Of a stretch of DNA of 39,544 bases, positions 220 through 34,553 are shown piece by piece. A program made the translations under genes and the position numbers. Source of the stretch: a virus. The stretch lies in IMG/VR virus record IMGVR_UViG_3300047462_000128, positions 1 through 39,544 of that record. One strand, written 5' to 3'. Each line of letters opens with the position of its first letter. Position 1 is the first letter of the stretch. The notes beneath the pieces are model-generated. The model was not told the origin of the DNA. It searched no databases and saw only the letters and a program-made list of their open reading frames with translations.

Positions 220-877
220 GAAATTCCTGATATGCATTGCTATAGGTGCTTTGTTGTGTTGTTTGCGGCAGGGCTTGTGCACCGAGTATGGTGTTCTCCG
301 CCCCGGTTGGGAGGGTGGAGTCACTTGCTAGTTGACCTGCCGCACTCAGCTTGTTTGCTTGGTTGGTGTCATATTGGGAGAGTGCCGTGCTTGAGAGATT
401 GCTCGCAAGGGTATTGTTGAGATTATTCGTGGCTTGGGAAACCGCATCCACATACCCACTACTATTCGTCCCCCCACTGCTTGCCCCAAAAGCACTTTGC
501 AGCGCCGGGATTGTTTGCTGCTGATATTGCTGCATCAAAGGTTGTGCAACGCTATTTTGAAAATAGCTGGAAAAGTCAGCTGGTGTGCTGTTTGCGATCC
601 CACCAAGGGTGTTAGTTGCCGTACCCAATCCTTGGGTTGCTCCGCTATTCTGCAAAGCTGTCTCGGTGCTCCCAAGATTGTTTAGGGTGGTGGTTTGTGG
701 CTGGGTGACTTGGGCTGTTAACGGCTGGCTATACGAGGGGCTTGCCGCCGTCCCGCCTGTCCCCACATTCACCCCAAGCGCCGCGAGCAGGCTCTGCAAA
801 CTTGTTTGCTGCTGCGGACCGATCGTCGAGTAGTTACTGGTGGATACGCTAGGTGAAGTCCCGGTCAAAAAACTCAT
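1..877 (-). CDS. Ejection (pilot) protein, P22 gp7-like by position; C-terminus crosses the junction
   Basis: An open frame starts at ATG 877-875 and runs off the left edge of the window. Using the repeated end, it closes at TAG 39324-39326, giving about 292 aa. Its start shares one base with the stop of the GNAT-like gene (TGATG), so translation is probably coupled. The protein is rich in Gln, Asn, Ser, Ala, Gly and Thr, with Q/N runs in the middle and a Gly/Ser-rich C-terminus ending in an Ala/Phe-rich tail. It shows no enzyme motif. It lies between the gp14-like gene and two large Ala/Gln-rich proteins, where P22 encodes gp7, which is ejected into the host with gp20 and gp16. The role is inferred from order and composition. 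The C/T difference between the two repeat copies changes Gly to Ser in this protein. Confidence 0.7.
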   Translation of the reverse strand, partial: MSFLTGTSPSVSTSNYSTIGPQQQTSLQSLLAALGVNVGTGGTAASPSYSQPLTAQVTQPQTTTLNNLGSTETALQNSGATQGLGTATNTLGGIANSTPADFSSYFQNSVAQPLMQQYQQQTIPALQSAFGASSGGTNSSGYVDAVSQATNNLNNTLASNLSSTALSQYDTNQANKLSAAGQLASDSTLPTGAENTILGAQALPQTTQQSTYSNAYQEFLNQLAQNNTTNSQVLAGSTAGTMGQNQVASSGTSGLLQGLLGSVGGSSGFGSAVGNGLAGGASDFANAIASLF

Positions 878-1407
878 CAGACTAACTCCCTCACATAAAT
901 CATCTTCGCATAACGTGTGTTATTTTCCACCCAAGAAAATGGGATGCACCCGACGTACTTGCCACCGAGCGCCTTCACAAAGGCCCTGGCCTTCTTGTTA
1001 GTCCAGGGGATTGTTGCCTGCACAATCAAGCTAGGCCCCGGAAAAGCCTCACGCAATTTCCAGAGGGCAAACTTCACAAAGTCCAGTCCAACCTTCCCAC
1101 GGGCAAAAGGCCGTATCGCGACGTGGCTCTCAAAATGCAACAGGCCCTGTCGAGCAAATTTCACCACACCAGCCAACTCGCCATCTGTCCAAAGACCAAA
1201 AACCAACCACGCCTCATTTCGCAACTCATCCGTAAAGTTGATCACCTCGATAGGTAGTTGCCCATCTTCTTTGGGGATTTCCTCCAAAAAGTGGTAAGCA
1301 AACAAATTGTAGTCTGCGATATCTTCCTGCACCTCAGCGAGGCGGCGGACCTCAATATTCTGAGGCTTCGAGGAAACGGAAAGACAACTGCGAGAGGAAG
1401 AAACCAT
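877..1407 (-). CDS. GNAT-like protein of the P22 gp14/DUF2824 type
   Basis: About 176 aa. The C-terminal half looks like a GNAT acyltransferase fold: a strand with HFESHVAIRP, then a charged RG-containing turn and helix near the acetyl-CoA pyrophosphate site, then the VQATIPWTNKKARAF segment and a terminal strand. In P22-type podoviruses a small protein of this kind (gp14, DUF2824) is encoded between the nozzle and ejection genes, as here. ATG 1407 was chosen because a G-rich ribosome-binding site (GGGGTGGG) lies just upstream; GTG at 1419 is an alternative. The start lies inside the end of the nozzle gene. Whether it acetylates anything is unknown. Confidence 0.6.
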   Translation of the reverse strand: MVSSSRSCLSVSSKPQNIEVRRLAEVQEDIADYNLFAYHFLEEIPKEDGQLPIEVINFTDELRNEAWLVFGLWTDGELAGVVKFARQGLLHFESHVAIRPFARGKVGLDFVKFALWKLREAFPGPSLIVQATIPWTNKKARAFVKALGGKYVGCIPFSWVENNTRYAKMIYVRELV

Positions 1408-3178
1408 AACCCACCCCACTAAGACGAAACCTGAAAAAGTCTCCAGTTATTTGGTAGTCCAAAACTTGTTTGGTGAAATTTTGCGTTCCAAAGTTAAACG
1501 TCCCGACAGTTTGATAGCTTGTTCCGCTGTCAGTGGAGATTTCACACAACACCCCATTCCCCATACCATACGCCGCGATACCGTCAAAAATCAACTTTTC
1601 TTCAAGGATTGGAAAGTCCTTGGAGACAAAATACCAGGGTATTTCCGCTCCATTCCAATTTCCTGTCTGAAAGTCGTAAGCATAAACTTGGCTGTCGGTC
1701 GCACTACATAACAGAAGGATGGGATAGTTTCCTTGAGAAGCGCGCGCGTTCCACGCAACCGTATCATCCAACCAACTCGCCCCCACACTCTCGGCCCACG
1801 AGAGCGCGCTTGTCGTGTAAGCGAAGCCCGCGCCTGTGATTTGCAGGGGCAAAGTGATGGGGAACCACGCTTTATATTTTTGTGAGTATCTGAGGATAGT
1901 GTCACAATAGGTTTTTCCTGTACTTGGGTAGAAAACCCACACTTCATCCAACTCTGCCACGTAAATGGCAAATAAACTTTGACTAGCTTCTGGGTTGAGA
2001 TTTCCTTCTGGTCCCAAAAAGTAATCGAAGACTGCATCTCCCACAGAAGTTACAGAATATCCTCCGCTGTACTGGAAAACCCCGCTTTGCGTAATGAGAT
2101 AATCAATATCTCGTGTTTTGATTAACCCATTACCACCTAGTGCCCCCGTCCCATTGACAGTGTATTGCCAAAAAAATACGGCATCAGTTGTTCCCCAATA
2201 AACCCCGCTCATAATACTTTGCTCACGCGCAAGTATCAGCGTAGTCCCGATCACCGTTGCGGCGACTATCTCATCCGGCGTGTCGGTGAGGTTGTCATAT
2301 CCCGTGATTGCGTAGGAAGTCCAATCGGTGGAGGAAACATTTGAGGACCGCCGCACCCGATAGGGGTAAACCGTCCCTCCTTCTGTGGTCCCGATTGCAA
2401 GCGTAAAGCCAAAGAAACGTATCACAATGCGGGCGGTAGAGGCAATGGAAGCCAAACCGGCTAGGGGAGCCAATAATCCACCCTGATAGCACTGCACCGG
2501 GTCAACACCGTTAGTCCAAATCAGGGAATTTACTGTGGGATCAACCGTCCAAGAGATTGGGTAGGCGCCTCCGTTGAAGGTGGTGTAGAAGGAGGCAGTG
2601 ACCCCGTTTGCAATGATCTGCCCGGCGGCGAGGGCGTTTGCACAAGTAATCACACTACCCACAATCGAAGTGACCGTGGAGGTGAAATAGTTACCACCAA
2701 CCAAGGGAATTGATACCACATTCCCGACAGCTACGCCACTGGTACTTCCGACTGTTATTGCCACAGGCAAATTAGTGAAGGGGCCAAAATTGCTGGAAAA
2801 AGAGCTTCCCCACGGCGTTGTGTTATAATTGGTCCCTGTAATGACTTTCGTCACCACTGGCGTCATGGCAATTTGCCAGTCTTTGATCCCACTATTATAG
2901 GTGTAGAAAGCAACACTTGTCACGAGGCATAGGGTGAGCACCCCGCTTGTTAACTCAAACGCAATCGTCTGAAGGGGAATTCCTGCTACCCTCGTACCAT
3001 AAGAGCGGTATCCCGTATCAACTTGGAGCACCCCGTTAATATACACAAGATTTTGCATATCACTTGACTGGGTGTCACCAATTTGGTCTTTCGGCTGCGA
3101 AAGGTTAATCCCACCCCCAAAGTTTGCAAGGGTCGTGTATTTTGGGGTTATGAAACCGGGCGGCGGTGGATTTGGCAT
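1352..3178 (-). CDS. Tail nozzle / stabilisation protein, P22 gp10-like by position
   Basis: 608 aa. It starts with a Pro-rich stretch followed by a short motif with FGGGINLSQPKD, similar in kind to the N-termini of podoviral tail nozzle proteins. The rest is beta-rich, with repeated aromatic/Gly strand patterns such as YWGTTDAVFFW, DEVWVFYPSTG and KYKAWFPITLP that resemble propeller blades. There is no signal peptide or membrane segment. It follows the adaptor and fibre genes and precedes the gp14-like gene. The ATG at 3178 lies one base after the stop of the preceding 87-aa ORF. It probably closes the portal-adaptor channel; this is inferred from order and composition. Confidence 0.65.
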   Translation of the reverse strand: MPNPPPPGFITPKYTTLANFGGGINLSQPKDQIGDTQSSDMQNLVYINGVLQVDTGYRSYGTRVAGIPLQTIAFELTSGVLTLCLVTSVAFYTYNSGIKDWQIAMTPVVTKVITGTNYNTTPWGSSFSSNFGPFTNLPVAITVGSTSGVAVGNVVSIPLVGGNYFTSTVTSIVGSVITCANALAAGQIIANGVTASFYTTFNGGAYPISWTVDPTVNSLIWTNGVDPVQCYQGGLLAPLAGLASIASTARIVIRFFGFTLAIGTTEGGTVYPYRVRRSSNVSSTDWTSYAITGYDNLTDTPDEIVAATVIGTTLILAREQSIMSGVYWGTTDAVFFWQYTVNGTGALGGNGLIKTRDIDYLITQSGVFQYSGGYSVTSVGDAVFDYFLGPEGNLNPEASQSLFAIYVAELDEVWVFYPSTGKTYCDTILRYSQKYKAWFPITLPLQITGAGFAYTTSALSWAESVGASWLDDTVAWNARASQGNYPILLLCSATDSQVYAYDFQTGNWNGAEIPWYFVSKDFPILEEKLIFDGIAAYGMGNGVLCEISTDSGTSYQTVGTFNFGTQNFTKQVLDYQITGDFFRFRLSGVGYGFFLSQLSFRFLEASEY

Positions 3179-7973: not shown

Positions 7974-9707
7974 TTATTGCACACCTGAAGGTGCCATATG
8001 TGGAGAGAGTTTGCCTTGTTTCCTAGCAACCGTGTGAGGGTTGTTTTCAGCAAATTGCTGAGCACTCATCGCCGCTTGCTGTTGTGCTTGCGCTTGCTGC
8101 TGAAGCTCTTGGGGCGTCATCAACAAATGGTCGTACTGTGCCCCATGCAGCTCACGTAGGAGGTATTGCGTGGTGCGAAACTTGTTAACGTAGGGATTTG
8201 CCATCAAGATGGGATAGAGGGTAAGCGCCGTTTGCTTTCGGATCTGCGCCGTTTCAGGTAAACCACTATCAGGATCAATGTTGATATCATACGTCCCCCT
8301 TTGCAGCATCTCCGGGGTGAATTGCACCCACTGCGTGGCGCCTTCATCCCCCACAATATCAACTACTTGGCCTTGTGTCCAAAATTGGAAAATCACCACA
8401 TGCATCCCAGCCACAATATCGCAAAGGCTATCTGCCACCGCATCGCGTCGTTCGTCAATCCTAATCTGGGTTGCCTGATTAACAATGCTGGCCTCGGTCG
8501 CGCTCCTGTCACTACTGCCGGGCGCATACTCACCAAACTGGTTGGCGCCCAAACCCATAATTTCCTGGGCTTCTTGTTCAACCATCTGCAGGCTCTGCGT
8601 CAATCCCTCGGGTATTGCAGCCACCAAATTAAAGGGCTCGAAACTTCCCATCTCATCAACCTCGAAGGCGGCACCCACATCACTAGAGGTCATCTTCTCA
8701 ATCTCATCGGGCGTGATGACATTCCTCTTCACGGCCATCTTCATAATCGAAAGGCGGCGGTGTTTCATTATGATCGTGCGGGTTTCGTTCGCCTCCCTCT
8801 GTTGCGGATCAAGAATTTGGGCGTCCGGCACACCCCAAAAAGCATCTTCCGAATTGTTGAAAACGATCGGGTAGAATGAGAAGCGGCCGGTTTGGGCGAG
8901 AAACTTGTCATCGTCAATTAAGAGGACTTTTTGGGAATGGTTTGGAGCAATGACGAAGACCTTCCCAAACTTCTTATCTCTTATCTCATAGAGAACAACC
9001 TTATCAGCGGCAACGTTTGCATCAGCCCCCATAAGGTTGCTTCCAATAGGGCGGTGTGTCTCCATTCCAAGAGTATTCTTGAAGCGTGGGTCATTTTTGA
9101 GGTCAGCAAGGCTAACCATAATCTCGTGTGCAACCCACCGAGCCTCGTCAAGCGAAGTGCACCGATCGGGAACGACAAAGTGACGCGGGTGCACCCGTTG
9201 CACCCACGGCATATTCGGCTCGATCAGGGAATCATACTCCAGCCGCTCGCCCCTCTTCTTCTTACTGTCAGGCGCCTCAGTGTTAAAGGCATCAGGTGTG
9301 GGGGTGTATTGGGCACCAAAACCCAACTTCAAAATACCCGTTCCGCACATGAAAGCGTCCTGGATTGCCAGCTTCATTTGACCCTTGAGGCGCAACCGGC
9401 GGATCAGTTTGTTATCTACCCTTTCAAGGATTTGGGCAAACACCGCCATTTCATCCCCCGGCATAGTTTGGAGGATTGATACTGTTGGGTCACGAAAATA
9501 CACCCGCGGAACCATAGTGCGGACCATCTTGAAAAATAGATTCACGGGCATCACGCCCGCGTCCCACTCTCCCCGATACATCTTTTGCCAATAGTCCCAC
9601 TTTCCTTGATAGGCACGTTTCTTGCGCCACTCAATCCCTTTGCGGATTTGGCCAATCCAATAACCCACATCAGGCTCGCCGGTCCGACTATACCCATTGT
9701 CGCTCAT
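7974..9707 (-). CDS. Portal protein
   Basis: 577 aa from ATG 9707, which overlaps the preceding stop as ATGA; a start at 9722 would add five residues. The N-terminal helices (WRKKRAYQGKWDYWQKMYRGEW), then NLFFKMVRTMVPRVYFRDP, a 'wing' with YDSLIEPNMPWVQRVHPRHF, and a long C-terminal helical region with GANQFGEYAPGSSDRSATEA are typical of podoviral portals. The C-terminus is very Gln/Ala-rich, like a barrel. It forms the DNA channel and docks the terminase. It follows terminase and the ATP-grasp gene. Confidence 0.85.
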   Translation of the reverse strand: MSDNGYSRTGEPDVGYWIGQIRKGIEWRKKRAYQGKWDYWQKMYRGEWDAGVMPVNLFFKMVRTMVPRVYFRDPTVSILQTMPGDEMAVFAQILERVDNKLIRRLRLKGQMKLAIQDAFMCGTGILKLGFGAQYTPTPDAFNTEAPDSKKKRGERLEYDSLIEPNMPWVQRVHPRHFVVPDRCTSLDEARWVAHEIMVSLADLKNDPRFKNTLGMETHRPIGSNLMGADANVAADKVVLYEIRDKKFGKVFVIAPNHSQKVLLIDDDKFLAQTGRFSFYPIVFNNSEDAFWGVPDAQILDPQQREANETRTIIMKHRRLSIMKMAVKRNVITPDEIEKMTSSDVGAAFEVDEMGSFEPFNLVAAIPEGLTQSLQMVEQEAQEIMGLGANQFGEYAPGSSDRSATEASIVNQATQIRIDERRDAVADSLCDIVAGMHVVIFQFWTQGQVVDIVGDEGATQWVQFTPEMLQRGTYDINIDPDSGLPETAQIRKQTALTLYPILMANPYVNKFRTTQYLLRELHGAQYDHLLMTPQELQQQAQAQQQAAMSAQQFAENNPHTVARKQGKLSPHMAPSGVQ

Positions 9708-9958
9708 TCGCTCTGGTCCCAATCCCGTTGTATTGTGTAGCCAAGCATTGCCACGCTTGCCACTAGTGCGGTGTAACCTCCGCTACCAGCCGCATAGGCG
9801 TAGGAAAGGAAACCATTGGCTAGTTGGAAGCTACAGGCAAGGCTTGTGATCTCCCCTTTTTCTGCACGAGCGAGTAGACTTTTGAGCGTCTGCACCACAC
9901 CCTCTTGAGGGCCTTCTGTTTTGTAGTCCCCGAAAGGCTTGATGATCTCCGCACTCAT
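9704..9958 (-). CDS. Small protein of unknown function (84 aa) before portal
   Basis: ATG 9958 overlaps the ATP-grasp stop (ATGA), and its own stop overlaps the portal start in the same way, so all three genes are coupled. The sequence holds a helix (VVQTLKSLLARAEKGEI), then SLACSFQLANGF and a moderately hydrophobic C-terminal stretch (ALVASVAMLGYTIQR) that could be a weak membrane segment or a core helix. No family is recognised with confidence. It is similar in kind to small phage proteins with an AE-GEI...A pattern. Confidence 0.6.
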   Translation of the reverse strand: MSAEIIKPFGDYKTEGPQEGVVQTLKSLLARAEKGEITSLACSFQLANGFLSYAYAAGSGGYTALVASVAMLGYTIQRDWDQSE

Positions 9959-11232
9959 GGCTGCACCCATCCCCAATCAACCAACTTCTTCATGTCACCA
10001 TTTACTCGCTTTCCAATATCAAGTCGATATTGCTTATTTGAGCAACTAATGTTTTCGAGGGTCCGATAGACACGTTCGCGGGCTTCCCTGACATAATCCT
10101 CACCCAACTTCCTCCCCCGCGCAGTGGCCTTTAGGACCAAACCATCTGCCGGCGCCACCTTAAACATATTGTCTTCATGATCGGCGTACACATTGCAAAG
10201 AAAAATGTGGTTAATGTTGTCGACTCCCACCCCGCCGATGGGGTCACCCCAATCTTTTTGCTTCACATCTTCCAAAGGGTAAGGCGGGACAGAAAGTCTC
10301 ACCGCGATCATACTATCCTGCGTGAGGTCCATCTCTTTCTTGGTCCCCATCGCGGTTTCAAAGAACAAATCCAAAAGAGGCTCTCTCAGTCCTTCAGCCA
10401 AAGCCTCGATAGCGTCATATCCAAATCGTGCAGTTGCCTCCAAAGCATACGCACCCTTCTCATTAACAATACAGTTGATATCAACTGGCCCGCGATATCC
10501 GATCTTAACCAAAAAAGGCTTGAGGCGCTCCACGGTTGCTCTTGTGAGTTTATTGCTATCACGAGCAAGGACAACATTGCCCATACAGCCAGTATTAGGA
10601 CCCAAATTTCCTTCCATAAAACGTTTTTCTTCAAATGTATGATTAAATGGTCTGATAAAGTCCCTTCCATTAAACCAACCCTCCGTGCTAACTTCTACAC
10701 CAGCGACAATACGCTGGACAATCATACTTGTGTTCGGTTTGTAAGTACCAAGTGCCCAAGCCAACTCGTCTTGGTGCGCGATCACCAAAGTTTTCCCTGT
10801 TCCGATATTCCCGTCGGGTTTGAGGACAAAGCCCTCTTGAAAATCAAGCCCCGCCAACGCCTCTTTGGCATCTTGTACACATTTGAAGGGGAAGGTTTCG
10901 GGGGTGGTGATGCCAAGTTTCTGGAAAATTTCCATACCTTTTTGGCGGTCCAGCTCCATCTCATCCATGATTTCGGAACAGGCCAAGTATGGTTTGCCCA
11001 TCCGACGAAAAACCTGTTCGAGGTGACCAAAGCCCACCATGTCACACACCACAAGATCGCTCCACGCCAGCTTTTCTCTCCACGAGGTGGGTCGATCAAT
11101 TATCCCAATGCCGCTCTTTTCATAATCGTGGTTCTTAATCCACATCGCAACATCATTGCCCTCACTCGTCAGGCGCTGCGCAATCCCAAGGCCATCCCCA
11201 GTATCACTGATGATAAGTATTTTCACTGTCAT
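9955..11232 (-). CDS. PurD-like ATP-grasp ligase (GAR synthetase-related)
   Basis: 425 aa, about the length of bacterial PurD. After an N-terminal Rossmann-like part (KILIISDTGDGLGIAQRL) it has the linker helix and GITTPETFPF, comparable to the PurD IPTA..F segment. Next comes the ATP-grasp loop VLKPDGNIGTGKTLVIA. GPNTGCMGNVV matches PurD's GPNTGGMGAY closely, and EATARFGYDA matches its E-N/A-RFGDPE metal/ATP site. The C-terminus ends with the PurD-like RLDIGKR. The N-terminal substrate part is more diverged and lacks the APGNAGT signature, so the substrate may not be phosphoribosylamine plus glycine. The neighbours are terminase and portal, not purine genes. It could make purine precursor or ligate an amino acid to another molecule. 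Confidence 0.8.
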   Translation of the reverse strand: MTVKILIISDTGDGLGIAQRLTSEGNDVAMWIKNHDYEKSGIGIIDRPTSWREKLAWSDLVVCDMVGFGHLEQVFRRMGKPYLACSEIMDEMELDRQKGMEIFQKLGITTPETFPFKCVQDAKEALAGLDFQEGFVLKPDGNIGTGKTLVIAHQDELAWALGTYKPNTSMIVQRIVAGVEVSTEGWFNGRDFIRPFNHTFEEKRFMEGNLGPNTGCMGNVVLARDSNKLTRATVERLKPFLVKIGYRGPVDINCIVNEKGAYALEATARFGYDAIEALAEGLREPLLDLFFETAMGTKKEMDLTQDSMIAVRLSVPPYPLEDVKQKDWGDPIGGVGVDNINHIFLCNVYADHEDNMFKVAPADGLVLKATARGRKLGEDYVREARERVYRTLENISCSNKQYRLDIGKRVNGDMKKLVDWGWVQP

Positions 11233-12832
11233 CCACTCCCGTCGCTATGGGGAAGCCGTCGTCAACCCCCTTGTCATATCGCGTACCCAACTCTTCAATT
11301 ATCGCCTCCAGGGAAAAGATTTCATTTCTTTTCGCCTTCTTGTTGTGCCTTTCTACCCCTTTGTAGAGGCGCTCGGCCACATTAGCCATCCGCTCAAACA
11401 TGGAAAGGGCAAACACACTGGCAATGATATGGTCATCGTGACAGCCAATTTCAGCACCCAACCTTCCACTGGCGTCCTCAACAAAAGTTTGGCACTCCAT
11501 CTGCAAAAGAGGTGAGTAGATTGTGACAAGTCCCTCACGCATAGCACCCCGAAACCTTCCACACATAAGGTTCTTTGAGACATCACTTGTGTAGGTTCCC
11601 CACTCGGCAAGCTTGCGCAACTCCACCTTGTCTTCTCGCGCACGGGCTTTTGCTCGCCCACTCACAGTTTGCGCAATTCGGTCCTTGCGATAGTGTTTGA
11701 TGATCTCCGCGCTGAAGAGGATACCGTGATTGTTTCTCTCAAAGTTAAGGAAAGCATCGTTAAATTCCTCAAGATAGTGAGAGCACTTCACCGCAAATCG
11801 GTCGGCCTCAATTCGGTTGTTGGTGTATTCAAGAACTTGCTCACCGCTTTCGATGTCAAAAATTTCCAAAACCGCAGCATCCTGTCCCACACCCCCCGCG
11901 GGATCAGCCCCCGCCGCATAGAAGCGACCTTCCATCGGGTGGCCCCGGAGGCGGTAAGTCCAAGGGTCTTCTTTCTTCCACTTATCGCTGTGGGTAAATG
12001 CAATTTTGCTGAAAAAGGAATTGCCGGTCGCTTGGAAACACTCATCAAGAGTACAGGGATACTGTTCCTTAAATTGCTGGATGTCCCCATCCAACTCAGA
12101 AATCTTCATCCGGCGCCACTTAAGCTGGGGTACGGTCAAACCGAATGACGCAATCACTTGCGGTTCTTCCAAAGCCTCATCAGCCAAAAACTCTTCCTCA
12201 TTGTGGATGGCATATTCATCCCGGTCAAGCCAAGAAACGAAATGTAGCTTGTAACCTTGCCCTGCGATAGCCCGCATACATGCACGGTGGAACCAATTCC
12301 CTGTCCCACGTCCTGTGCTCTCCACATATATGTGCCCATTTGGGCTAACTGCTTGGAAGAGACCGCTCAACAATGGCCCAGGATTTTCCCACCTGCTCAC
12401 CTCACTACAGTGCAAATCCGTTATAGTATCACCCACACCAAAATCAGCATTACCCGCCGTGCCTATGTAGATGCTGCTATCCATTTTCCCAAACGTAATG
12501 AAGTTTTGGGTACTGTATTTGATATCGGGCTCTGCGCCCTTCATGTGCTTGATCATGTACTTGATACGTTCAAGCAGTTTTTGCGTGGCGTTGGCGCTGT
12601 GGGATACAATAACACACCGCCTGTTGCGATAAATCAAGCAGCGCGCAAGAAAGAGTCCCAAAATAAGCATGGAAAAACCAAGTTGCCGGGCCTTCGCAAT
12701 AATGTCTTTTCCGCTACTCGACTCAAGAAACCGACGCTGTTCCCGATTAAGCACAAAATCAACGTCCCGCCCTTCCTTGTCAGGAATACGGAACATTGTC
12801 TCTATGATGATTTGTTCGGGAACAGCAGCCAC
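11204..12832 (-). CDS. terL: Terminase large subunit
   Basis: 542 aa from GTG 12832. The ATPase part shows a Walker A variant in AKARQLGFSML (adenine-binding residues and P-loop as in gp28/Terminase_6-type proteins), CVIVSHSANATQKLL, a Walker B with DLHCSE, and a coupling motif near VESTGRGTGN. The nuclease part has AGADPAGGVGQDAAVLEI (first Asp), a middle FNDAFLNFERNNHG and GCHDDHIIASVFAL near the end, as in RNase H-like packaging nucleases. The C-terminal tail is charged. It ends 29 bases inside the ATP-grasp gene. Its small subunit is 5.7 kb away, which is unusual. Confidence 0.88.
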   Translation of the reverse strand: MAAVPEQIIIETMFRIPDKEGRDVDFVLNREQRRFLESSSGKDIIAKARQLGFSMLILGLFLARCLIYRNRRCVIVSHSANATQKLLERIKYMIKHMKGAEPDIKYSTQNFITFGKMDSSIYIGTAGNADFGVGDTITDLHCSEVSRWENPGPLLSGLFQAVSPNGHIYVESTGRGTGNWFHRACMRAIAGQGYKLHFVSWLDRDEYAIHNEEEFLADEALEEPQVIASFGLTVPQLKWRRMKISELDGDIQQFKEQYPCTLDECFQATGNSFFSKIAFTHSDKWKKEDPWTYRLRGHPMEGRFYAAGADPAGGVGQDAAVLEIFDIESGEQVLEYTNNRIEADRFAVKCSHYLEEFNDAFLNFERNNHGILFSAEIIKHYRKDRIAQTVSGRAKARAREDKVELRKLAEWGTYTSDVSKNLMCGRFRGAMREGLVTIYSPLLQMECQTFVEDASGRLGAEIGCHDDHIIASVFALSMFERMANVAERLYKGVERHNKKAKRNEIFSLEAIIEELGTRYDKGVDDGFPIATGVDDSENTYHQ

Positions 12833-29120: not shown

Positions 29121-29154
29121 GGGTGGGCATCACTTGTGTGCCCACCCTCTTTTT
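29121..29154 (+). terminator. Rho-independent terminator
   Basis: GGGTGGGCA (29121-29129) pairs with TGCCCACCC (29139-29147), followed by TCTTTTT. It separates the recombination genes from the muramidase gene. Confidence 0.85.
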
Positions 29155-29168
29155 GGAGTAACTGTGTA

Positions 29169-29738
29169 ATGCAAGCAAACTTTCCCACAATCCTATCTGC
29201 CGTCCTTGCCCTCGAAGGCGGGTTCAGTGACAACCCTGTCGATCCTGGCGGGATAACAAATCTTGGTGTGACTGCCCGCACGTGGGCCTCCTATATTGGC
29301 GTAGATGTCGCTAACGTGAGCGAAAGCGTTATACGCAGCTTAACGGTTGCAGATGTGGAACATCTCTACCACGATATGTTTTGGAATCCCATCCAAGGAG
29401 ACGCTCTCCCCAGTGGTATTGACGCGATGGTTTTCCACATGCAAGTCAACGCGGGCAAAGTTGGGGTGAAAATCCTCCAACAATACTTAGGTCTAACACC
29501 TGTTGACGGCCAACTTGGTCCTAAAACACTAGCTGCCCTGAAAATTTCCCTAACACAAACCAACATCATCACCAGTATACTTGTTCTTGGCTATCGCCAG
29601 GACACTTACTACAGATCGCTCCCTGGTTTCCCCACCTTCGGAAAAGGTTGGCTCAACCGTGTTTACACCATGCGGACCCTCGCCATCAGGTTGGCGAATG
29701 GAGTTGTGCCGCCGACATCGGATAAGGCGCTCGCCTAG
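29169..29738 (+). CDS. GH108-type N-acetylmuramidase (endolysin)
   Basis: 189 aa from ATG 29169; a frame from 29136 would cross the terminator. The N-terminus has the GH108 signature LEGGFSDNPVDPGG and ITNLGVT, with catalytic Glu at E16 and D25 in the DPGG turn. Then DVEHLYHDMFWNPIQGD and the PG_binding_3-like C-terminal part (VDGQLGPKTLAAL) follow. It hydrolyses peptidoglycan for host lysis. It has no signal peptide, so it needs a holin or similar. It is preceded by a terminator and followed by an extended -10 promoter. Confidence 0.85.
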   Translation: MQANFPTILSAVLALEGGFSDNPVDPGGITNLGVTARTWASYIGVDVANVSESVIRSLTVADVEHLYHDMFWNPIQGDALPSGIDAMVFHMQVNAGKVGVKILQQYLGLTPVDGQLGPKTLAALKISLTQTNIITSILVLGYRQDTYYRSLPGFPTFGKGWLNRVYTMRTLAIRLANGVVPPTSDKALA

Positions 29739-30027: not shown

Positions 30028-31371
30028 ATGCCCATCATCCCCCTCGACACTATCCACCTCAAACCCGGCCGTATCCGCACGGAGTTTGACGGTGAAGCCA
30101 TCCACCGCCTCGCCAATGTAATCCTAGAAGACGGATTATTGCACGCCCCCACCGTAGATAAAGAAGGCAATCTCTTGGCGGGTGAGCGTCGTCTCCGTGC
30201 CATCACCCTCCTTTCCAAACAGGGCCTCGGTTTCATGTGGGCAAACAAGCGCATTGAGCCGGGCGAGTGCCCCGTGGAGGTTTTTCACTCCACCGAAGAG
30301 CTGATCCTTCTCCGCGCAGAATTGCGCGAGAACACCGAGAGAAGCGACATCACCTGGAAAGAGAAGGTCGCTGCTACGGAACGCCTCTTGAGGTTGCAGG
30401 GAATTGAACGCGAGATACGCGGGGAGCCCGCCCTCCCAGAGCGCATGATGATCCGGGAGTTGGCGACTGAACTTGGCAAAGAAAAAAAGAAATCCGTGCC
30501 AAGTTATGTAACTAACAAAACCCACGAAATCACGAGGGATAACCTACTCGCGGCGTGGCTGGATGACCCGGAGGTCAGTGCGGCAAAAACCGCCAATGAG
30601 GCTTATAAGATTGTGGAGGCAAAACTTGTGGAGGCAAAGCGCAAGGCCCTCTCTCGGGAGTTTAAGACCGCAGCACCCGTGATGCGCCACACCCTAATCC
30701 ACGGCGATGCGAACATCGAACTTGCGAAGTTGAGCAAAAACACTTTCGATGTGATTATCACAGACCCGCCCTACGGCGTTAACATTGATGGATATGCCAG
30801 CCTCCAAGGCGGTGTCGATCACCACTACGATGACAGTCCCCAAGTCCTAGAGGAATTGCTCCACACCTTCTCCACCGAGTTTTTCCGGGTCACCAAGCCT
30901 GAAGCCCACCTCTATATGTTTTGTGACTACACCTGGTTCGAGATCATCCGGGCCAAGCTTTATCCTTTGTGGTACGTTTGGCCGCGGCCGTTGATATGGC
31001 ACAGGAGTGACAGCACCGGCATGTTGCCCCGGCCGCAACACGGCCCACGGCGCAATTACGAGTGTATCCTTTACGCGATCAAAGGTGATAAGCGCGTGCA
31101 GTTTGTTGGAAATGACGTGATAAGCCTCCCATCCGACAAAGGGCTAACCGAAACAACCGCAGCGCGCAAGCCAGTCGATCTCTACGTGGAGCTTTTGCGC
31201 CGTAGCGTCGTGCCGGGAAATCAGATCCTCGATAGCTGTGCAGGGAGTGGCCCGGTGTTTGATGCGGCGGAACGCTTGGAGTGTATTGCGACGGGGATTG
31301 AGTTGAATGAGGCGCTGGTAGGCGTTTGCTCAGAACGGCTTAGGAATATAGCGAAGAGAGCTGGTTTGTAA
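30028..31371 (+). CDS. ParB-domain / DNA methyltransferase fusion (N6-adenine or N4-cytosine type)
   Basis: 447 aa. Residues ~1-90 are ParB/Spo0J-like: LKPGRIRTEFDGEAIHRLAN, then GNLLAGERRLRAITLL (GERR at 52-55). Residues ~95-215 are helical and linker-like. The methyltransferase has motif IV DVIITDPPYGV (DPPY from D246), a target-recognition middle and motif I ILDSCAGSGPVFDAA (D402), the beta-class order. No restriction endonuclease is beside it, so it probably modifies phage DNA for protection or regulation. The target sequence is not evident. It ends two bases before dyad site A. Confidence 0.85.
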   Translation: MPIIPLDTIHLKPGRIRTEFDGEAIHRLANVILEDGLLHAPTVDKEGNLLAGERRLRAITLLSKQGLGFMWANKRIEPGECPVEVFHSTEELILLRAELRENTERSDITWKEKVAATERLLRLQGIEREIRGEPALPERMMIRELATELGKEKKKSVPSYVTNKTHEITRDNLLAAWLDDPEVSAAKTANEAYKIVEAKLVEAKRKALSREFKTAAPVMRHTLIHGDANIELAKLSKNTFDVIITDPPYGVNIDGYASLQGGVDHHYDDSPQVLEELLHTFSTEFFRVTKPEAHLYMFCDYTWFEIIRAKLYPLWYVWPRPLIWHRSDSTGMLPRPQHGPRRNYECILYAIKGDKRVQFVGNDVISLPSDKGLTETTAARKPVDLYVELLRRSVVPGNQILDSCAGSGPVFDAAERLECIATGIELNEALVGVCSERLRNIAKRAGL

Positions 31372-31419: not shown

Positions 31420-33063
31420 ATGCGTCTTATCCAATCTGGCCCAAAAGATGCCCGCATTATGATAGTCGGGGAAGCCCCTGGGAGAGAAGAAGCCCAAAGC
31501 GGCCAACCCTTTATCGGTCCTAGTGGGAGTGAGTTAAACCGCCTCCTTTTGGAGGCCGGTATCAACCGCAGGGAGTGCTTCATCACCAACGTCTGCCACG
31601 CCCAAGCACACAAAAACGACATAGAGCTGTTTTTCCACACAAAAACAGAAGCAAAATCACTTGGCCTTGAGGTGTTTTGGGGGCGCTATCCCAACCAAAC
31701 AGTGAGGGATGGCGTGGCGCAGCTTCTTCGGGATGTCAACGAAGTAAAACCCAAACTAATCATTGCGCTGGGGAATACACCTTTGTGGGCTCTGACGGGC
31801 AAAACAGGTATCATGTCTTGGCGGGGCAGCGCCCTCTCGTGCGACGCAGGGGGCCTTGCCATTCCACTTCTTCCCACAATCCACCCGGCAAACATCCTTC
31901 GCGACTTCTCCAACCGCTACCTTGCTTTGCAGGATTTGCGCCGCGCCGTCAACTTTTTTGGCGACCGCACTTGCTGGTATGAGCCGACCCGAGCTTTCAC
32001 CATCCGACCAACCCTCGATAATGTCAGCAAATTTATCCAAAACCTTCTCTTCGCAATGAGCCTTAGTCCCACCACCATCGCCTGTGATATCGAGACCCGC
32101 CAAGGCCAAATCGCCTGTATCGGCATTGCGACTGACAAAACAAACGCTATCTGCATCCCCCTACTTTGCGTGGAGCGTCCCGAAGGCTACTGGAATGAGC
32201 ATGAGGAATTGCTTTTGTGGACCCTGCTCCGGCAACTTCTCACCCACCCCAACGCTCGGTGCATATTCCACAACGGCGCCTACGACCTCCAATACTTCGC
32301 GAAGCAAATGGGCTTCATGCCGCGGATTGCCCACGACACCATGCTAATGCAACACGTTGCCTTTCCGGGATTGAGAAAATCCCTCGCCGTTTGCGCTTCC
32401 CTCTACTGCACCTATCACCGATATTGGAAAGACGACGGCAAGGAATGGGACAAAACGCTGCCCGAAGAGCAGCTTTGGACCTATAATTGCACCGATTGCG
32501 TGAGGACTTATGAGATATGGGAAGAACTCACAAAAGTGCTTACCTCCCTCAATCTTGTGGAGCAATACACATTCCAAATCGAGGAATTATTTCCTACCAT
32601 CTTGGAGATGATGCTCAGGGGCGTCACCATTGACCTCGACTACCGCGCCTCCCTGGACCAAGGGCTCTCCCACAAACTCAATCAAATCGAGCAGTGGCTC
32701 ACCATCGCGACTGGCCACCCCCTCAACCCGCGCTCGCCGACCAAAATCAAACAGCTGCTCTATGAGGATTTGGGCTTGCCGGTAATCCGCAAGCGGGCGA
32801 CTGGACTTCCCACCACTGATGATGAAGCCCTTGAAAAAATCAAACTCCGCTACCCTTTGATACGCCCCCTTTGCGACAAAATCCTAGAAGCGCGCTCTGT
32901 GGGTGTCTTCCTAAACACCTTCGTCCATGCCCGCGTACCACCAGACGGTCGGATGCGGACGACGTATAACCTTGCCGGTACAGAGACTTTTCGTTTCTCA
33001 TCCAGCGAAGATAGCTTCGGTTACGGGACTAACCTTCAGAACATTCCAAAAGGAAACGAGTGA
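31420..33063 (+). CDS. Split DNA polymerase, N-part: uracil-DNA-glycosylase-like + 3'-5' exonuclease + polymerase thumb
   Basis: 547 aa. Residues ~1-190 are a family-4-type UDG domain: MIVGEAPGREEAQ, GQPFIGPSGSELNRLL and the TIHPANILR motif; the N-terminal CxxC of classical family 4 is absent, so the Fe-S cluster may be lost. Residues ~215-370 are a DnaQ/PolA exonuclease: DIET (D223), FHNGAYD and CTDC (D359). Then a family A polymerase thumb region ends at TFRFSSSED and TNLQNIPKGNE. The stop comes immediately before the place where motif A should begin. The rest of the enzyme is encoded at 33738. Confidence 0.85.
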   Translation: MRLIQSGPKDARIMIVGEAPGREEAQSGQPFIGPSGSELNRLLLEAGINRRECFITNVCHAQAHKNDIELFFHTKTEAKSLGLEVFWGRYPNQTVRDGVAQLLRDVNEVKPKLIIALGNTPLWALTGKTGIMSWRGSALSCDAGGLAIPLLPTIHPANILRDFSNRYLALQDLRRAVNFFGDRTCWYEPTRAFTIRPTLDNVSKFIQNLLFAMSLSPTTIACDIETRQGQIACIGIATDKTNAICIPLLCVERPEGYWNEHEELLLWTLLRQLLTHPNARCIFHNGAYDLQYFAKQMGFMPRIAHDTMLMQHVAFPGLRKSLAVCASLYCTYHRYWKDDGKEWDKTLPEEQLWTYNCTDCVRTYEIWEELTKVLTSLNLVEQYTFQIEELFPTILEMMLRGVTIDLDYRASLDQGLSHKLNQIEQWLTIATGHPLNPRSPTKIKQLLYEDLGLPVIRKRATGLPTTDDEALEKIKLRYPLIRPLCDKILEARSVGVFLNTFVHARVPPDGRMRTTYNLAGTETFRFSSSEDSFGYGTNLQNIPKGNE

Positions 33064-33485
33064 TGGATAACAAAGAGTTTATACGCTTGCTTAACAAAGA
33101 GAAGAGAGCTGCCAACACGTGGGCACACATCAAAAGCGGTCTCCGGCTCGCTATTGAAACAATCCACGAAGCTAACAAGAAATGGTGGATCGACCTTCAC
33201 ACAGACAAGCCTCTGGAGCGCAACGTTGGTGAGATGCTCATGCTCATTGTTAGTGAGATTGCTGAGGCGATGGAAGGTCACCGCAAAAACCTAATGGACG
33301 ACAAACTTACACACCGTAAGACGCTTGAGGTCGAGCTGGCAGACGCGATGATTAGGATTTTTGACCTTGCCGGGGGGCTTGGCCTCGACCTACCAGCCGC
33401 AATAGAGGAAAAATGCCTCTATAATGCTCACCGCTTGGACCACACCCCCGAACACCGCAAGGGCGAACATGGAAAGAAGTATTGA
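33063..33485 (+). CDS. MazG-like nucleoside triphosphate pyrophosphohydrolase
   Basis: 140 aa from ATG 33063, which shares a base with the polymerase stop (TGATG); GTG 33060 is possible. The all-alpha NTP-PPase motif is ISEIAEAMEGHRK-like: SEIAEAMEGH, then EVELADAMIRIFDLAGGLGL and EEKCLYNAHRLDHTPEHR, ending GKKY. It hydrolyses (d)NTPs and may also act on (p)ppGpp-like or damaged nucleotides. It lies inside the split polymerase locus, probably inserted there. Confidence 0.8.
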   Translation: MDNKEFIRLLNKEKRAANTWAHIKSGLRLAIETIHEANKKWWIDLHTDKPLERNVGEMLMLIVSEIAEAMEGHRKNLMDDKLTHRKTLEVELADAMIRIFDLAGGLGLDLPAAIEEKCLYNAHRLDHTPEHRKGEHGKKY

Positions 33486-33486
33486 G

Positions 33487-33732
33487 ATGGATAAGCCGGA
33501 ACAAAACGAGCCAACCTTTACACTTCTTGGCCGCGATCGCCAAGCCCCTGATGCCGTCCGCCAGTGGGCCTACGCACGGGAGCGCGCAGTCAACACGTGC
33601 TTCGCCCCTTTATCCGACCTGCAAAAAGTTGAGGCAGCCCGAAAAATTGCAAATGAAATGGAAGAGTGGCGAAAACTTCACCGGCCCCAAAGCGACACCG
33701 AGATCGCGAAACCAAACTTTTTGGGGAAATAG
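33487..33732 (+). CDS. Small protein (81 aa) between polymerase halves, unknown
   Basis: ATG 33487 is one base after the MazG stop. Its pattern EPTFTLLGRDRQAPDAVRQW, then AYARERAVNTCFAPLSDLQK and a helix AARKIANEMEEWRKLH resembles small phage proteins with a 'LLxRDxxAP..V..WA' motif of unknown function. It is one of two genes that separate the polymerase halves. Confidence 0.55.
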   Translation: MDKPEQNEPTFTLLGRDRQAPDAVRQWAYARERAVNTCFAPLSDLQKVEAARKIANEMEEWRKLHRPQSDTEIAKPNFLGK

Positions 33733-33737
33733 CAGCC

Positions 33738-34553
33738 ATGACTCTTCCCAACATTCGCAAGATGTTCAAACCAGACCAGGATCACATCATTTTCGAGGCC
33801 GACCTCGCTGGCGCTGATGCACAGGTTGTCGCCTGGGATGCCGATGATGCTGACCTCAAGCATATGTTTCGCAACAAACTCCCGGTCCACTGGGAAAATG
33901 CCAAGGCTATTTTTGGGGCCGTGGAACCCCGTCTGCTAACGGCCAAGTCCGACAACGAGGTGAAGGCCCATCCTGAACTTGACAAATACCGCCAATACGC
34001 AAAGGTTGGTGTCCACGCCACCAATTACGGGTGCAAGCCACCCACGCTCGCCAGCCACCTCAACATCACCGTGCCGGCCGCGGCCAAATTCCAAGAAGGG
34101 TGGTTCCGCGCCCATCCTGCAATCGCAAGGTGGATTGAGCGCACAGAAGATGAGTTGATGGCCACCCGGACCGTTCACAACGCCTTCGGCTACAAACGCT
34201 ATTACTTCGATCGGGTGGATGAGGTCCTCCCACAAGCACTTGCGTGGCGCCCCCAATCCACAGTCGCTATCTGCATCAACAAAGGAATGGTCGCCTTCCG
34301 CAAGTGGGTGAAGGAAGAAGGTTTGCGTGCCAACCTGCTCCTCCAAGTCCACGATAGCTTTGTTGGCCAAGTCCACAAATCTCACGCCCGCCTCGTCCTA
34401 CCCCACATCCAAACCCGATGCAGTATCACAATCCCCTACGCTGACCCTTTAACAATCCCCCTCTCACTATCTACGTCCGATCTCTCGTGGGGAGATTGTA
34501 AAAGCTATAGGTTGGGGGATTGGGAAGAGTGCGTCACCACCGCGATTGGCTGA
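33738..34553 (+). CDS. Split DNA polymerase, C-part: family A palm/fingers active site
   Basis: 271 aa. ATG 33738 begins MTLPNIRKMFKPD, which continues the sequence broken off at NLQNIPKG. Motif A is FEADLAGADAQ (D22), motif B is KYRQYAKVGVHATNYG (residues ~77-92), and motif C is LLLQVHDSF (D206), where most relatives have HDE. All catalytic residues for polymerisation are here, and the exonuclease is in the other protein. The two must associate to make a working enzyme. Ribosome binding is through GGGGAAA about ten bases upstream. Confidence 0.85.
   Translation: MTLPNIRKMFKPDQDHIIFEADLAGADAQVVAWDADDADLKHMFRNKLPVHWENAKAIFGAVEPRLLTAKSDNEVKAHPELDKYRQYAKVGVHATNYGCKPPTLASHLNITVPAAAKFQEGWFRAHPAIARWIERTEDELMATRTVHNAFGYKRYYFDRVDEVLPQALAWRPQSTVAICINKGMVAFRKWVKEEGLRANLLLQVHDSFVGQVHKSHARLVLPHIQTRCSITIPYADPLTIPLSLSTSDLSWGDCKSYRLGDWEECVTTAIG

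Follow-up and report, generated by a model that had tools for sequence, protein, structure and literature searches.

The window analysed here, a single virus record of 39,544 bases taken at its full length, encodes between the genes for the terminase large subunit (terL) and the portal protein an ATP-grasp protein that is predicted to have the complete fold of PurD but that, going by the features tested in the sequence, does not appear to be a GAR synthetase. In relatives, the same position (hereafter, the slot) is occupied by an intact copy, by a full-length copy without the catalytic residues (a dead copy), by the N domain alone, or by no homologue, and purifying selection acts on the dead copies, with a strength that in one pair matches that on portal. 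The preferred reading, held with moderate confidence, is that of a late PurD-derived ATP-grasp ligase with changed substrates and, in the packaging-linked lineage, an additional non-catalytic role with pseudoenzymes.

A PurD-type protein between terL and portal

The predicted gene, taken from an ORF listing and its translation, lies at 9955-11232 on the minus strand and encodes 425 aa from an ATG start (Table 1). This ATG, at 11232, falls within terL and is preceded by GGGAG. The stop codon shares an ATGA (9958) with the start of a small ORF, the stop of which shares a further ATGA with the portal ATG (9707). The gene thus sits in a packaging cluster coupled by overlaps, as an earlier note on this DNA had described. 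No homologue of the small ORF was found in the loci searched. An antisense open frame of 402 aa (10177-11385, plus strand) lies opposite the ATP-grasp gene and shows no sign of being a gene.

Table 1. Coordinates of the ATP-grasp gene, its parts, and its neighbours in the window
Feature	Position	Strand	Remarks
PurD-type ATP-grasp protein	9955..11232	-	425 aa; Pfam, profile, phmmer, AF2, and structure-search matches
N-terminal pre-ATP-grasp domain, aa 1-92	10957..11232	-	SDTGDGLG where PurD has GGREHA
ATP-binding lobe, aa 115-172, includes K138	10717..10890	-	intact in window protein
E265-A-T267-A-R269 metal/carboxylate motif (PurD E-x-N-x-R)	10426..10440	-	alignment
C-terminal domain, GARS_C-like, YRLDIG motif (R403, D405) common with PurD	10003..10335	-	
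Terminase large subunit, terL	11204..12832	-	29-nt overlap with ATP-grasp start
Small 84-aa ORF	9704..9958	-	ATGA overlaps with ATP-grasp gene and portal
Portal protein, SU10/P22-like	7974..9707	-	profile matches, ATGA start

The protein had been called PurD-like on the strength of its GPNTGCMGN and ARFG motifs. Both are present in the translation, and Pfam GARS_A matches aa 101-271 (E = 1.7e-10; 41.5 bits, cut-off 27) and GARS_C aa 350-409 (E = 1.7e-5; 25.5 bits, below its cut-off of 34.8). An AF2 model made with 55 homologues as input (pLDDT 95.2) could be aligned to PurD 2yw2 over 389 residues (Z 37.0, rmsd 2.9), with the PurD fold covering the entire modelled length, N domain included. The N-terminal divergence claimed earlier is therefore real in the sequence, where GGREHA is replaced, but does not extend to the fold, the N domain of the model being PurD-like. 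PurD fills the 13 top rows of the VIA list (Z 31.2-37.0; next family, Z 25.7), a kind of list that rules out no PDB family, and Foldseek ranks 1-15. PurK, PurT, and PylC also have the ATP-grasp fold, but at Z values of about 23.6-25.7 they fall clearly under PurD, and a phmmer search at E values up to 1 left them unmatched; by the TIGR00877 profile and phmmer, PurD is the sole clear sequence family.

The window protein scores 76.1 bits against TIGR00877, the NCBIfam equivalog model of PurD, which has a cut-off of 288 bits and which in a control gave a match over that cut-off in 34 of 39 genomes. Searching 39 genomes with a profile of the phage family yielded one copy, from a MAG, at 275 bits, and next a match of 143 bits at an ordinary PurD site. 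In a FastTree phylogeny, a single branch (support 100) separates 125 phage proteins, including that of the window, from 34 PurDs, with a long-branch warning on L011 (L011:1-6317), which among the IMG/VR members of the first alignment is the most distant. None of the four family members scanned against PHROGs gave a match. By tblastn, one GenBank phage record was found to hold a full-length family copy, namely MW202796 (MW202796.1, 42137-43447; L012), in which no gene is annotated at that site. One scan of environmental phage contigs returned at least 504 stretches related to a divergent family profile, and a search of genome contigs returned four family loci (L092-L095), all on MAG contigs, one of which (L093) equals the viral contig L122 in length; these loci say little about hosts.

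The absence of other purine genes, also claimed earlier, agrees with a Pfam scan of 18 further window proteins, covering part of the small ORFs, in which none was seen. Phage-encoded ATP-grasp proteins thought to form peptide-type bonds occur in the amidoligase-ATP-grasp modules of the LUZ24, PhiM6, and RIO-1 type, credited to Iyer et al. (2009) in PMC6256558, and the window protein is like them to that extent. In the LUZ24-like phage UFV-P2, however, the ATP-grasp gene lies on the early strand with genes for an amidoligase, a COOH-NH2 ligase, and a glutamine amidotransferase, whereas in the window it lies between terL and portal, and no such partner was found among the 19 window proteins scanned in Pfam, which include the small ORFs in part.

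Some other window genes were noted as well. A family A DNA polymerase is divided between two ORFs (31420-33063 and 33666-34553; region 31420-34553, plus strand), the first with a uracil-DNA glycosylase domain fused at its N terminus, and a pyrophosphatase-like ORF (33060-33485; phrog_5658, 2e-51) lies between the halves. One ORF (30028-31371, plus strand) combines a ParB-N-like domain, matched below the cut-off, with an N4/N6 DNA methylase domain. An endolysin-like glycosyl hydrolase 108 (29136-29738, plus strand) lies apart from the late genes on the opposite strand, and the late block closes with a GNAT-like ORF (877-1419, minus strand; Pfam match at the cut-off, weak PHROG match to 'head morphogenesis'). 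A GNAT is likewise found among the structural genes of MW202796, a distant relative.

Active-site residues shared with and differing from PurD

For the comparison of residues, the window protein was aligned with the full-length phage members, 124 of the 128 in the non-redundant set, and with 34 PurDs (31 from genomes, that of E. coli, and two gut records found to be ordinary PurD). The two human gut 'Bacteriophage sp.' records, MT835525 and MT836742 (L215, L216; H2, H6), encode ordinary PurD with GGREHA, perhaps through bacterial contamination. E93, K138, K203, E265, and R269 are present in all 34 PurDs and in 125 of 125 full-length phage members, a conservation that is partly by construction, since these members were recruited by patterns including conserved motifs; the portal-based scan described below, by contrast, turned up many copies without the five catalytic residues. 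Also common to all phage members and PurDs are G215, G248, G271, and D405, and R403 is present in 124 of the 125.

Five PurD residues are exchanged throughout the 125 phage members—K for R96, D for E201, Y for D251, G for N253, and N for T267—and further replacements set the phage proteins apart at Q173 (122/125), C216 (122/125), Y272 (123/125), and A274, where PurD has E (120/125). The GGREH loop, found in 34 of 34 PurDs, reads SDTGDGLG in the window protein; at the R, E, and H positions of this loop, D (103), G (103), and L (61) are commonest among the 125.

In PMC8880213, the glycine contacts of A. aeolicus PurD are given as D212, R287, and E292, and the ATP contacts as K103, K143, E185, E192, and K214. 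Mapped onto the window protein, these glycine contacts become E201, R269, and A274, so that R287 alone is kept; the ATP contacts become R96, K138, Q173, E180, and K203, with position 180 being E in only 80 of the 125 phage members. So the phosphate chemistry appears to be retained together with the carboxylate-holding Arg, and two glycine contacts and the GGREHA loop are lost. Overall, the family resembles PurD (TIGR00877, PF01071/PF02843) in its three-domain fold, its E/K/K/E/R set, a GPNTG-GMG-like loop, and the C-domain YRxDIG motif, but differs from it in the changes corresponding to D212 and E292 (as numbered in that source), in the metal-site exchange of N for T, in the missing GGREHA loop, in the new invariant D251 and N253, and in belonging to a late operon in which no purine genes were seen.

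An ordinary auxiliary metabolic gene—that is, a viral GAR synthetase supplying purines late in infection—is thus very improbable. The full-length PurD fold and the standing of PurD as the only clear sequence family would suit it, but the missing loop, the replaced glycine contacts, a score of 76 bits against an equivalog cut-off of 288, the late position without other purine genes seen, and the retention of dead copies by selection all point away from it; its residues, its profile score, and its context were the grounds for rejecting this reading. The earlier expectation that the enzyme does something other than ordinary purine synthesis is probably correct, given this score and the active-site swaps, and nothing was found in support of late purine supply, an option that had been offered with it. 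Viral 'purD' auxiliary metabolic genes have been reported (PMC11097641, PMC12043954), and a PurD model could label the window gene likewise, the comparison with them being one of annotation alone.

Intact, dead, and missing copies in the slot

To avoid motif-recruitment bias, the slot was surveyed with portal and terL profiles, the best 80 loci being taken for each. Of the 148 loci obtained, 127 have both genes, with a homologue between them in 114 and none in 13. When portals were grouped at 95% identity, 74 clusters resulted from these best 80 loci per profile: 38 have a slot copy with all five catalytic residues, 24 a full-length dead copy (340-439 aa, at most two of the five residues), 1 a short copy (285 aa), 5 the N domain only, and 6 an empty slot. 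The gene is dispensable, as these six empty clusters indicate. Many relatives carry it, and absence from all close relatives, which the earlier note had named as the outcome contrary to its proposal, is not what is seen.

Each of the 25 dead copies from the same best 80 loci per profile has an N domain filled to 94% or more, and nine of them lack the ATP-binding lobe (aa 115-172). All nine lobe-deleted copies retain the C-terminal R.D pair, including L357 (via L310, on the same contig) and L382. The N-domain-only ORFs L351 (6.8e-7), L323 (9e-5), L325 (7e-4), and L377 (2e-3) are, in the ORF set, the four best non-full-length profile matches; each occupies the slot, and the following match has an E value of 0.9; L365 was counted with them from its likeness to L377 (49% over 112 aa). 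An RRWW..RNG tail of the N-domain-only proteins was set aside as a protein motif because the DNA of two of the ORFs encodes there the portal ribosome-binding site and start.

In the dead pair L282/L357, amino acid identity is 85% for the slot protein and 82% for both portal and terL, and the slot gene has a pS of 0.77 and a pN of 0.11, both being given in place of ratios because most pairs show saturation at synonymous sites. For comparison, slot identity in the six intact pairs tried lies within 6 points of that of portal and of terL. The other dead pairs tried, from a 14-member clade, show slot identities of 41-57% against 64-77% for portal; the slot protein there evolves faster than portal, and constraint is therefore weaker. 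This clade nevertheless has invariant residues of its own, and its model (12 rows as input; pLDDT 89.5) keeps the PurD fold (Z 32.3). Because L282/L357 is constrained and the clade model keeps the fold, some dead copies, at least, are functional proteins.

The dead copies could instead be decaying genes, their frame held open by coupling to portal and uninformative on function. The loss of the gene in 6 of 74 clusters (best 80 loci per profile) and the two N-domain-only ORFs whose final codons encode portal signals would fit such decay. Coupling, however, requires an open frame and not a conserved 355-aa protein, and neither the 85% identity of L282/L357 at saturated synonymous sites nor the invariant residues and confident PurD-fold model of the 14-member clade would be expected, making this reading quite unlikely.

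Since PurD has the same five residues, the intact state was treated as the ancestral one. The dead full-length label needs 10 changes on the portal tree, 6 of them forced by well-supported branches, and the slot-protein tree 3 intact/dead changes, 1 of them forced; for deletion of the ATP lobe, the numbers are 7 on the portal tree and 4 (1 forced) on the gene tree. The gap between the two trees may be due to recombination or to long branches. Catalysis was lost at least once, and probably several times. Furthermore, because the slot of many relatives holds a dead copy or just the N domain, the slot protein of the packaging-linked lineage probably does more than catalyse a reaction.

In this lineage the protein could primarily be a packaging or assembly factor, with the ATP-grasp fold as a scaffold for binding terminase or portal and with catalysis in second place. 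Full-length dead copies in 24 of 74 clusters and the N domain alone in 5, the filled N domain of all 25 dead copies (counts again from the best 80 loci per profile), and the portal- and terL-like constraint on L282/L357 argue for it. Against it, the catalytic set is complete in 38 of the 74 clusters, the 6 clusters with no homologue (same best 80 loci per profile) must package without one, and in the group II phages described below the intact enzyme lies apart from terL and portal; as a full account, it is rather unlikely.

Genomic contexts and proposed function

The gene-order check suggested earlier gave a uniform result: the order terL-ATP-grasp-portal was found in 59 of 59 non-redundant loci having both terL and portal. 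Among all 128 non-redundant loci, two have terL only, one portal only, and 66 neither. Many of these 66 belong to group II, in which the gene lies downstream of capsid and cell-wall hydrolase genes. A capsid-based scan for group II gave 80 loci, of which 29 extend at least 5.5 kb downstream; 26 of the 29 have an intact copy, none a dead one, and 3 no copy. Since this context exists away from terL and portal, packaging genes are not the constant partner, and the notion of a 'packaging-specific' gene is weakened by these intact copies, often just past a cell-wall hydrolase. No constant partner or substrate gene was found across the contexts compared.

In 33 of 128 loci a peptidoglycan hydrolase, of one kind or another, is encoded no more than five genes away, in 23 of them directly upstream; such hydrolases are more frequent in loci without terL and portal (27/66) than in the others (6/62). 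Partnership with a lysis cassette was dropped as a general rule, given only 33 of 128 loci. The largest cluster of hydrolase-like neighbours, which from a motif we take to be M15-like, had no match in a Pfam scan. Another gene, near the ATP-grasp gene in some loci (L157:9632-10408), has what we took for a TGT/DpdA-like appearance, an identity that was dropped when Pfam and PHROGs gave no match. On the 160-kb contig of L011, collagen-like, glycosyltransferase-like, radical-SAM-like, and epimerase-like ORFs were noted by eye.

Coupling to terL and portal, the hydrolases near 33 loci (directly upstream in 23), and the glycosyltransferase-, radical-SAM-, and epimerase-like neighbours of L011 could suggest a late amide ligase acting on a macromolecule, namely a virion protein, a peptidoglycan stem peptide, or a DNA base. 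This is nonetheless unlikely: the full-length three-domain arrangement predicted by the model serves small substrates in PurD, no partner or substrate gene is constant, the hydrolases occur chiefly where terL and portal are absent, and no amidoligase was seen in the 19 window proteins scanned. For the modification of DNA or a virion protein, as raised in the earlier note, no support was found.

The preferred reading, a PurD-derived ligase with changed substrates, would have the phage enzyme expressed late, judging from its place among late genes with overlapping frames. R269 would hold a carboxylic acid, which would be turned into an acyl-phosphate and then joined to an amine, so that the predicted chemistry is amide-bond formation. 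The acceptor would probably be a small phosphate-bearing molecule held between the N and C domains, a guess made because HAD-like phosphatases are fused or adjacent in both groups and because this half of the protein, with R403 and D405 in the C domain, is kept. A C-terminal HAD-like domain with a DxDxT-type motif is fused to the ATP-grasp protein in 17 of 128 loci, and a separate HAD-like ORF lies beside the gene in two group I loci (L098 and L120), these assignments being based on DxDGT-like motifs and sub-cut-off Pfam matches (E values of 9e-4 to 0.1). In PurK and PurT, a phosphorylated acceptor is held by the N and C domains. For PurD itself, the binding of PRA is still to be clarified according to PMC8880213.

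In the packaging-linked lineage, a second, catalysis-free function—ligand or partner binding, with the N domain most retained—would explain the retention of dead copies, under selection, in the slot. A bolder version, put forward tentatively, is that a purine-type enzyme captured by phages took on a new late substrate and was then repeatedly hollowed out beside terL and portal into a selected ligand-binding or packaging pseudoenzyme, the ATP lobe being deleted while the N and C halves stay.

No PurD-like gene between terminase and portal was recognised in the titles and abstract starts of the open-licence literature searched, and no description of a PurD-derived phage family with a pseudoenzyme series, as predicted here, was met there. 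The family is carried by hundreds of environmental phage contigs, and annotation as PurD would wrongly add it to the purine auxiliary metabolic genes. With enzyme, dead copy, N domain alone, and empty slot all seen at a single locus, the series amounts to a natural experiment in the conversion of enzymes into non-enzymatic viral parts, for which close phages at the slot locus provide testable pairs. If the hollowing-out reading is true, a metabolic enzyme would be seen turning into a structural or regulatory part of a virus, with all stages extant in phages.
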